Origin: Halalkalicoccus tibetensis
GTDB lineage: Archaea > Halobacteriota > Halobacteria > Halobacteriales > Halalkalicoccaceae
Direction of reading: 5' to 3'
Assembly (NCBI RefSeq): GCF_037996645.1
Contig: NZ_JBBMXV010000004.1
Coordinates: forward strand, 149,684-213,683
Length of the DNA: 64,000 nucleotides
The notes beneath the pieces are model-generated. The model saw only the letters and a program-made list of their open reading frames with translations. It did no database searches and was not told the DNA's origin. The position numbers and the translations under genes are program-made. Each line of letters opens with the position of its first letter. Within the stretch, counting starts at the first letter, position 1. Of the stretch, positions 51,759-53,228 are shown in pieces.

Positions 51759-51890
51759 CGATTACCGGAGCGTACGAACCGCGAGGCCATGAACGTAACG
51801 CCGGCCCCCTCAAGGGTATCGGGACGGGCACCGCCGTTCTCCCGGCGCTCGACCGGAGCGGGTTTGGCACGCGGCGTCCGATCCCCTCCC

Positions 51891-52526
51891 ATGGACGACC
51901 CGCGGACCGTCCGCGAGACCTACGACCGGATCGCGAGCCACTTCGCGTCGACCCGCGAACACGCCTGGCCCGAGGTCGAACGGTTCCTCGCGGACCACGA
52001 GGGCCGGCTCGGCCTCGATCTGGGCTGTGCGAACGGACGCCACGCCCAGCTGCTCGCAGGACGGGTCGATCGCGTCGTCGGCGTGGACGTCAGCCGCGGG
52101 CTGCTCGAGGAGGCCCGAACCCGATCGCGCGAGCGGGGCTTCGACGCCGAGCTCCTGCAGGGCGACGCGGCCCGCATCCCCCTTCGGGACGACCGGGTCG
52201 ACCTCGCGGTCTACATCGCGACGATCCACCACCTGCGCGACCGCGAGCAGCGGGTCCGGAGCCTCGACGAGCTCGCACGGATCCTCGCACCCGGGGGTCG
52301 GGCGCTGGTGAGCGCCTGGAGCACGGTCCATCGGAAGTTCGACCGCGGGGAGGGGTTCGACACGACGGTCGACTGGACGTTACCCGGCGGGGAGACGGTG
52401 CCGCGGTTCTACCACATCTACGCGCCCGAGGAGTTCGAGGCCGACGTCGAGGACAGCGCGCTCGTGGCCGAGTCGTTCGAGGTCTCGAGCGGGAACTGCT
52501 ACGCGGTGGTGGGAAAGAAACAGTAA
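51891..52526 (+). CDS. Trm9-like class I methyltransferase
   Basis: A 211-residue SAM-dependent methyltransferase. It starts at MDDPRTVRETYDRIASHFAS; the frame is open for 191 codons further upstream, but that part looks like shadow. SAM motif: LGLDLGCANGRHAQLLAG. The later IATIHHLRDREQRVRSLDEL closely follows the IAVIHH signature of Trm9/ABH8-type wobble-uridine methyltransferases, which work with a Trm112 partner in archaea. Located 133 bases upstream of tRNA-Gly(TCC), a known substrate type for yeast Trm9. Confidence 0.82.
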   Translation: MDDPRTVRETYDRIASHFASTREHAWPEVERFLADHEGRLGLDLGCANGRHAQLLAGRVDRVVGVDVSRGLLEEARTRSRERGFDAELLQGDAARIPLRDDRVDLAVYIATIHHLRDREQRVRSLDELARILAPGGRALVSAWSTVHRKFDRGEGFDTTVDWTLPGGETVPRFYHIYAPEEFEADVEDSALVAESFEVSSGNCYAVVGKKQ

Positions 52527-52608
52527 GGCCCTTAACCGGGGCAGGGCTACTGCGTGATAGCTGCGTTCGCCCGTTCGCGCCGGATCGGCGCGGGCGAAGC
52601 GCCGGTGT

Positions 52609-52631
52609 CCCCGTGAACGAAGTGAACGGGG
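52609..52631 (+). repeat. Hairpin element with GAACGAAGTGA loop
   Basis: CCCCGT and ACGGGG flank the loop GAACGAAGTGA. The loop word nearly repeats in the next hairpin (GAACGGAGTGA), 13 bases away. Confidence 0.5.
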
Positions 52632-52636
52632 GCTCG

Positions 52637-52663
52637 GCGCAAGCGAACGGAGTGAGCTTGCGC
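52637..52663 (+). repeat. Hairpin overlapping the 5' end of tRNA-Gly
   Basis: GCGCAAGC and GCTTGCGC form an 8-bp stem around GAACGGAGTGA. The last four bases are also the first four of the tRNA acceptor stem, so the hairpin competes with the mature tRNA fold. Confidence 0.55.
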
Positions 52664-52730
52664 CGGTGGTCTAGCGGTATGACTATGGCCTTCCAAGCCA
52701 TCGACCCGGGTTCAACTCCCGGCCGGCGCA
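52660..52730 (+). tRNA. tRNA-Gly (anticodon TCC)
   Basis: A 71-nt cloverleaf. The acceptor stem GCGCCGG pairs with CCGGCGC, with A as discriminator. The anticodon stem ATGGC/GCCAT holds the loop CTTCCAA, giving anticodon TCC (Gly, GGA). The T-arm is CCGGGTTCAACTCCCGG. No encoded CCA. No clear TATA box is visible upstream, so it may be cotranscribed with the methyltransferase gene before it. Confidence 0.95.
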
Positions 52731-52853
52731 TTTTCCGAGCGTAATCGGCGAGCAGCCGGCTGGCCGTAAGCGTCGGAGGGAATCGGGACGCCGTGGCACG
52801 TTCGCGCGTGGCGCAGCACACTATTTAACCGTCCGCCACACATACGAGTACCC

Positions 52854-53138
52854 ATGAGCGAAGAAGGCGGCCGAAAGAACCTCCGCATGCCCGACGACGA
52901 CGAGATGTTCGCCGTCGTCACCGACATGCTCGGTGGCGGGCGCGTCAGACTCCAGTGTAACGACGGGAAGGAACGCATGGGCCGGATCCCCGGCCGGATG
53001 CGCTTTCGGACCTGGATCAACGAGGACGACGTCGTCCTGATCGAGCCCTGGGACTGGCAGGACGAGAAGGCGGACATCGAATGGCGATACGACAGCCAGG
53101 ACGCCGCCCAGCTGCGGCGCGAAGGCCACATCGACTGA
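52854..53138 (+). CDS. Translation initiation factor aIF-1A
   Basis: A 94-residue OB-fold (S1-like) protein: [20 protein letters not shown], then [20 protein letters not shown] and [20 protein letters not shown] match archaeal and eukaryotic eIF-1A. It binds the small ribosomal subunit A-site region and helps start-codon selection. TATA-like TATTTAACC precedes the ATG at about 30 bases. Confidence 0.95.
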
Positions 53139-53228
53139 CGACCTTTTCGAAGCATACCGACACGACCAGCGGCGCCGCCGGAAGGATCATGCCCCAGGGT
53201 TTTGAGCGTCGGGATCGTCGTTCCCTCC

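Follow-up and report, generated by a model that had tools for sequence, protein, structure and literature searches.

The window, a 64,000-nucleotide stretch of the Halalkalicoccus tibetensis genome, carries on its forward strand a 211-aa open reading frame for a Trm9-like SAM-dependent methyltransferase (51891..52526), recognized from the ORF, from homology and, as a putative HVO_1032 ortholog, from the synteny of its relatives. Exactly 133 nt further down on the same strand lies a gene for tRNA-Gly with anticodon TCC (UCC), placed at 52659-52731 by ARAGORN and at 52660-52730 by Rfam (RF00005); the latter span is used here. A TTTT immediately 3' of the tRNA (52731..52734, + strand) is a possible terminator. 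The neighbours of the pair in the window are a DUF5793 gene upstream on the opposite strand and the gene for aIF-1A next downstream. The nearest relative locus, from H. paucihalophilus, is 75% identical and has an identical upstream gene order. An earlier note, made from the letters of the window, had described a methyltransferase with an IATIHH-type signature and a tRNA-Gly(TCC) 133 bases downstream of it; the ORF indeed carries VYIATIHH, and both the two tRNA calls and the gap bear the description out.

Two samples were used for comparison. One consists of 80 loci, the best 80 of 148 relatives, in which Halorubrum and Haloferax are over-represented. The other consists of 59 Halobacteria genomes drawn from the class, with possible species overlap with the 80 loci.

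The enzyme and its probable substrates

The enzyme matched Methyltransf_11 of Pfam with 78.6 bits (cut-off 21.2), a class I SAM-methyltransferase domain. Only generic methyltransferase models exceeded their Pfam cut-offs, and none of the 25 NCBIfam families listed (of 34) reached its own cut-off. Among solved structures the top match was 5cm2_Z, with E = 5.9e-19 for the single sequence and, when a 30-homolog profile was used, E = 3.5e-26 (runner-up, 5.4e-15), so that homology to Trm9 is well beyond chance; chain Z of 5cm2 is Yarrowia Trm9 in the Trm9-Trm112 complex. When Yarrowia Trm9 was searched against the window genome, the window enzyme was the single match at E ≤ 0.001. 5cm2_Z was also ranked first by Foldseek for the AlphaFold model of the enzyme (pLDDT 87.5). 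The VIA-align score of 5cm2_Z against this model (Z = 20.3) was level with those of many unrelated class I methyltransferases, and the fold alone therefore does not settle the Trm9 identity. The assignment to a Trm9-type enzyme, made previously from the signature, thus agrees with the profile match, the reciprocal search and the Foldseek ranking alike.

Mutation of R29, H115, R241, Y243 or N271 of yeast Trm9 (R29A, H115A, R241A, Y243A, N271A) impairs tRNA binding (PMC5372719). Across the 30 homologs of the window enzyme, R22, H113, H114, R172 and N202 are invariant and Y174 is nearly so. R22, HH113-114, R172 and Y174 align to R, HH, R and Y of 5cm2, and we infer from this alignment that they are the counterparts of yeast R29, H115, R241 and Y243. 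N202 stands 28 residues from Y174, the spacing of N271; it falls outside the 5cm2 alignment and, by its spacing, would correspond to N271. The window genome also encodes Elp3 (TIGR01211, 775 bits, cut-off 350) and Trm112 (49.2 bits, cut-off 22). Trm112 of Haloferax volcanii is reportedly the subject of a study by van Tran in 2018. Out of the six Elp proteins, archaea have homologs of Elp3 only (PMC2584109). On these grounds archaeal Trm9 is the best identification for the window enzyme, whose Trm9 activity and partnership with Trm112 are predicted.

A PilC-type pilus gene (a name assigned from sequence and PMC6985049) precedes the enzyme gene in 69/80 relatives. In H. volcanii, HVO_1033 is a pilus membrane protein and HVO_1034 a pilus ATPase (PMC6985049), and both are adjacent by number to HVO_1032, the proposed Trm9 ortholog (PMC5372719). 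Since PilC and PilB likewise precede the relatives of the window enzyme, the latter is taken to be the ortholog of HVO_1032. HVO_1032 has relatives at E < 1e-48 in Halobacteriales and Sulfolobales only, according to PMC5372719; an earlier paper had named HVO_0574 as the Trm9 candidate (PMC2584109).

In H. volcanii, U34 appears to carry a modification of unassigned chemical nature in tRNA-Gly(UCC), Leu(UAG) and Arg(UCG), and it is unmodified in Pro(UGG) and Ala(UGC) (PMC2584109). Together with the substrates described for yeast Trm9 (PMC5372719), this makes tRNA-Gly(UCC) the plausible substrate that it had been suggested to be. It is probably one substrate among several U34 tRNAs.

Conservation of the pair and a baseline for linkage

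A same-strand tRNA-Gly(TCC) gene lies downstream of the enzyme gene in 69/80 loci (flanks up to about 4 kb). It is within 400 nt in 27 of the 80 and inverted in one; in 10/80 flanks of up to about 4 kb, three of them shorter than 3 kb, it was not seen. The gap is 53 nt in Halobacterium salinarum (L084), and Halorussus and Haladaptatus strains also have the adjacent layout; in Haloferax loci it is 2.6–2.7 kb, so that a distant tRNA would be expected in H. volcanii too. In the 59 genomes the enzyme has one match each (59/59), and the tRNA-Gly(UCC) pattern occurs once in 56 and is absent from three by pattern search. In 48/59 genomes the tRNA follows the enzyme gene on its strand by no more than 5 kb: at most 400 nt away in 29, from 6 families, and 1.2–3.9 kb away in a further 19. 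In the remaining genomes the two genes are on opposite strands within 2 kb (3), 13.6 kb apart (1), far apart (3) or on separate contigs (1). Conservation of the pair in relatives, which the earlier note had put forward as a check, is thus well beyond chance in both samples, and we conclude that the haloarchaeal enzyme gene and its probable substrate tRNA are long-standing neighbours.

In three genomes (G039, G045 and G046) a tRNA-Gly(UCC) gene with a different body stands on the opposite strand, 0.3–1.8 kb off, as if replaced in place. We also considered aIF-1A, GlmM and DUF5793 as a conserved block with the enzyme gene and rejected it; within the flanks examined they were found at only 1, 3 and 4 of the 80 loci, respectively.

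How much such linkage means was gauged from other tRNA genes. When the window genome was compared with one genome of another family, 19/44 tRNA genes had a retained coding neighbour (tRNAs masked, at least 80 aligned residues; a count from these two genomes only). The corresponding unmasked count, 25/44, is inflated by matches from the tRNA sequence itself. One of the 19, tRNA-Ala TGC, probably belongs to an rRNA operon. Conserved neighbours include genes for translation (CCA-adding enzyme, EF-1alpha, ribosomal protein S4) and, near tRNA-Gly(GCC), one for a putative RNA methyltransferase. The gene for the CCA-adding enzyme adjoins tRNA-Asn(GTT) and tRNA-Met(CAT) (L091, C2:465030), an arrangement kept in the second family.

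A particularly close parallel to the layout of the enzyme/tRNA-Gly(TCC) pair is a Trm5-like gene (L089, 392-1575; C1:667828) that ends ~50 nt before tRNA-Thr(CGT) in both genomes and has a box A-like element just past its stop codon. Trm5 specifically forms m1G37. tRNA-Thr(CGT) of the window genome has A37 and is therefore no m1G37 substrate of the adjoining enzyme. Synteny as proof of coupling was dropped, as 19/44 tRNA genes keep a coding neighbour anyway, and adjacency is weak evidence for functional coupling of enzyme and tRNA.

Promoter-like element and leader of tRNA-Gly(UCC)

The H. volcanii dRNA-seq study proposes a CGAAA-like BRE and a TTWT-like TATA box as haloarchaeal promoter motifs (PMC4983044). 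The window holds a BRE/box A-like sequence, GTAAGGCCCTTAA, that overlaps the stop codon of the enzyme. Elements resembling box A were found with a simple expression 28–45 nt upstream of 25/43 tRNA genes of the window genome, and motif discovery in 91 tRNA upstream regions from two genomes (those of Gly-UCC, Gly-CCC and Gln-UUG excluded) yielded AACGAAACCCTTA. Scored with a BRE plus box A matrix from other tRNA genes, GTAAGGCCCTTAA was weak (best score 4.8; background 95th percentile 5.9 per 50 nt). The case for a promoter was therefore built on comparison between loci.

For this comparison a box A expression and a composite BRE/box A expression were used, both devised after viewing the sequences. 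A box A motif was found near the enzyme stop in 21/28 loci where the two genes are adjacent (1.3 expected) and in 0/42 non-adjacent loci (2.4 expected). In 68/71 loci the 300 nt before the tRNA contain the composite element (AGTAAGGCCCTTAA in the window; 52522..52535, + strand, over the stop codon at 52524-52526), with 1.9 expected from shuffles and 8/1400 random windows positive. The end of this element lies no more than 9 nt from the end of the stop codon in 23/28 adjacent loci, the stop codon being inside the TATA box in several; in the other five, the element ends 17 to 81 nt past the stop (four loci) or was not found (one). At non-adjacent loci the composite element stands before the tRNA (23 of these loci were listed one by one, and all were counted). 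As it stays before the tRNA when other genes intervene, the promoter appears to travel with the tRNA. At one locus (L020) the tRNA is preceded by an apparent remnant of the methyltransferase end (RRTKQ-stop) together with the promoter, 1.4 kb away from where the enzyme gene now stands. The claim that the tRNA had no clear separate promoter did not survive this comparison: tRNA-Gly(UCC) has a promoter-like element of its own, conserved and lying on the stop codon, between two genes that a dicistronic unit would leave without one.

The leader between this element and the tRNA contains predicted hairpins. A first hairpin (52572..52596, + strand) has an 11-bp stem in the predicted fold. It is followed by a 42-nt unit (52599..52640, + strand) that opens with the first nine bases of the tRNA, copied exactly (GCGCCGGTG), and ends with a strand predicted to pair with this copy. 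An inverted repeat, CGGCGCAAGC/GCTTGCGCCG (52635..52665, + strand), links the unit's end with the tRNA's 5' end and offers an alternative pairing. A search for the motif GAACGAAGTGA with one mismatch allowed gave 4 matches in the window (1.2 expected).

Exact nine-base copies of the tRNA 5' end were found in the leaders of 23/71 loci, 31 copies in all (0.24 loci expected); these loci carry 15 genus labels, with the window and MAGs counted apart. In 30/31 cases the copy belongs to a unit of 42 or 44 nt, closed by a strand that can pair with 6 or 7 of its first 7 bases (control, 4.9%); for seven of these 30 units a length of 35 nt gives equally good pairing. Being exact, all 31 copies have T as base 8; in the folding prediction U8 is bulged out of the outer stem. 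In the 31 units, pair 3 of the outer helix is G-C in 15, A-T in 11, G-T in 1 and unpaired (G-G) in 4, pair 4 is C-G in 28, G-C in 2 and unpaired in 1, and pair 7 is unpaired in 12. When the leaders were compared with eight variants of the tRNA 5' end, 23 contained their own variant (one of them also a foreign one), 3 a foreign variant only and 45 none. Units lie between promoter and tRNA, sometimes in tandem, in the window and at L009, L022, L024, L052, L068, L073, L080 and L088. Of 29 loci counted as having a unit upstream of the tRNA, one (L063) is probably false, the unit being in the upstream coding region.

Elsewhere in the window genome, 2/46 tRNAs have copies of their 5' end in the leader, tRNA-Gly(CCC) and tRNA-Gln(TTG), the Gln copy pairing best at 39 nt; in the second genome the count was 0/45. 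At the tRNA-Gly(CCC) gene (L095, C1:64387) the copy of the tRNA's own 5' end is part of a 44-nt unit. The bare unit-like pattern is not enriched in the window genome (5 places, 6 for the reversed pattern), and two of the five places adjoin tRNA-Gly(TCC) and tRNA-Gly(CCC). Searches with Rfam 15 of window positions 51800-53200 (to E 5) and of seven relatives (to E 1) gave only tRNA (RF00005) above the gathering score; the sole sub-threshold match touching the leader (52527-52659) was EBER1, at E 1.3, which starts 7 nt before the tRNA. The number of units rises with the distance to box A (rho 0.81); this correlation was given no weight, being partly circular because box A was required upstream of all units. 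Copies of the last nine bases of the tRNA, often with the T arm and acceptor strand, were seen 65–285 nt downstream of the tRNA at L090, L094, L100, L112, L174, L203 and L044, and some close hairpins of 50–60 nt.

To our knowledge, leader units of 42/44 nt have no previous description. Among the titles and abstracts listed on haloarchaeal tRNA leaders, tRNA-end repeats and minihelices, nothing fitted except the dRNA-seq study, and the only literature match to the hairpin sequence was a chance match to a piece in an insect paper.

Competing readings and known systems

The explanation we favour, with a probability of roughly two in three, is that an archaeal Trm9 gene and a separately promoted tRNA-Gly(UCC) gene are held together mainly by overlap of the promoter with the reading frame. 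Elp3 would make cm5U34, from which Trm9 with Trm112 would make mcm5U34, acting in trans on several U34 tRNAs. The single-copy tRNA-Gly(UCC) would be transcribed from the BRE/box A over the last codons and the stop codon of the enzyme, and its precursor would have, in the window, a leader of ~100 nt that RNase P would remove during maturation. The pair would be kept by this physical overlap, added to the general retention of neighbours by haloarchaeal tRNA genes; the position of the tRNA promoter on the enzyme stop codon is the simplest reason for the two genes to stay neighbours. In the 19/59 genomes with the tRNA 1.2–3.9 kb away on the same strand, the overlap would not be the sole force. If this explanation is true, deletion of the ORF in a species of the adjacent type would take the promoter of a single-copy tRNA gene with it, and a simple knock-out would therefore confound loss of modification with loss of tRNA. 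It would also name a candidate enzyme for the haloarchaeal U34 modification of so far unassigned nature.

Three other readings of the pair were weighed. The enzyme and the tRNA could be co-transcribed as a dicistronic RNA from which RNase P releases the tRNA. The same-strand arrangement within 5 kb in 48/59 genomes would fit, and so would the lack of a T4 run between enzyme gene and tRNA in all 28 adjacent gaps (0/28), owing to which read-through from the enzyme gene is possible, with the TTTT of the window coming right after the tRNA. In the H. volcanii dRNA-seq study, moreover, 39/52 tRNA genes have a nearby start site and tRNA-Gly(TCC) has none, for which the authors suggest an operon or multicistronic origin, while noting possible technical loss for some tRNAs (PMC4983044). 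However, a tRNA promoter at the enzyme's stop codon makes a joint transcript unnecessary, and both the close placement of the element in 23/28 adjacent loci and its relocation with the tRNA at non-adjacent loci, 42 of which have no box A after the enzyme gene, make co-transcription unlikely. That the enzyme is a Trm9 relative acting on another tRNA base or on a non-RNA target we regard as somewhat less probable still. The generic Pfam matches, the 0/25 listed NCBIfam families (of 34) at cut-off, a structural Z that leaves Trm9 unseparated from other class I enzymes, and the earlier candidacy of HVO_0574 would be compatible with such a target, but the sequence profile and the reciprocal search point to Trm9, and the RxY and IHH residues are retained. 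Least convincing to us is selection for the linkage itself, that is, retention of the pair because the enzyme acts on tRNA-Gly(UCC). The pair is adjacent in nine loci without PilB/PilC seen in about 4 kb upstream and also in the window, whose upstream genes differ, and the H. volcanii counterpart of this tRNA is reported to carry a modified U34. Yet the functionally unrelated PilC is linked just as often (69/80 and 69/80 loci), 19/44 tRNA genes keep a coding neighbour across two families, the Trm5-like gene keeps a place ~50 nt before a tRNA with A37, and Leu(UAG) and Arg(UCG), too, have U34 reported as modified.

The leader hairpins allow two readings of their own. It is an even call whether recombination or replication slippage at the tRNA gene left them behind as relics with no RNA function. 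A tRNA's own 3' end is often copied downstream of its gene (17/45 and 19/45 tRNAs in two genomes), Haloquadratum has documented cases of partial tRNA duplication by prophages, and outer-helix pair 7 is unpaired in 12/31 units and pair 3 is G-G in 4. Against this stand the 42/44-nt units closed with at least 6/7 pairs at 30/31 exact copies (control, 4.9%; seven of them pairing as well at 35 nt), and pairs 3 (G-C 15, A-T 11) and 4 (C-G 28, G-C 2) that track the tRNA's own sequence. Tentatively, and with more doubt than belief, we consider that the leader may instead be a new cis RNA element, in which one to three mini-tRNA hairpins of 42/44 nt process or regulate the precursor made from the promoter at the Trm9 end. 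The 5' strand of the outer stem would then copy the species' tRNA acceptor stem, with the pairing varying with it. A minimal RNase P substrate consists of two helices and a linker, a build that the units resemble. If the hairpins do act in this way, they would explain why start sites near tRNA-Gly(TCC) and tRNA-Gly(CCC) are missing in H. volcanii, and they offer a possible sequence-level explanation for these two tRNA-Gly outliers of its start-site map. The H. volcanii dRNA-seq data are independent support for unusual leaders of tRNA-Gly(UCC) and tRNA-Gly(CCC).

With Trm9 (yeast; the ABH8 methyltransferase domain in man; 5CM2), its closest profile match, the window enzyme shares the class I fold and the IHH and RxY residues, and the window genome likewise has Trm112 and Elp3 genes; in contrast to yeast Trm9, the window enzyme is archaeal, has 211 aa and is known here from its sequence and a model. 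HVO_1032 of H. volcanii has PilC and PilB as neighbours, as judged by gene number, as do relatives of the window enzyme, whereas the upstream genes differ in the window and in nine adjacent loci. tRNA-Gly(CCC) of H. volcanii is a long-leader tRNA-Gly (300 nt), and tRNA-Gly(CCC) of the window genome carries a 44-nt unit; the section of the H. volcanii study on these leaders mentions no hairpin units, and for the UCC isoacceptor it suggests an operon instead (PMC4983044). Within Haloferax, the leaders compared here were those of species other than H. volcanii.
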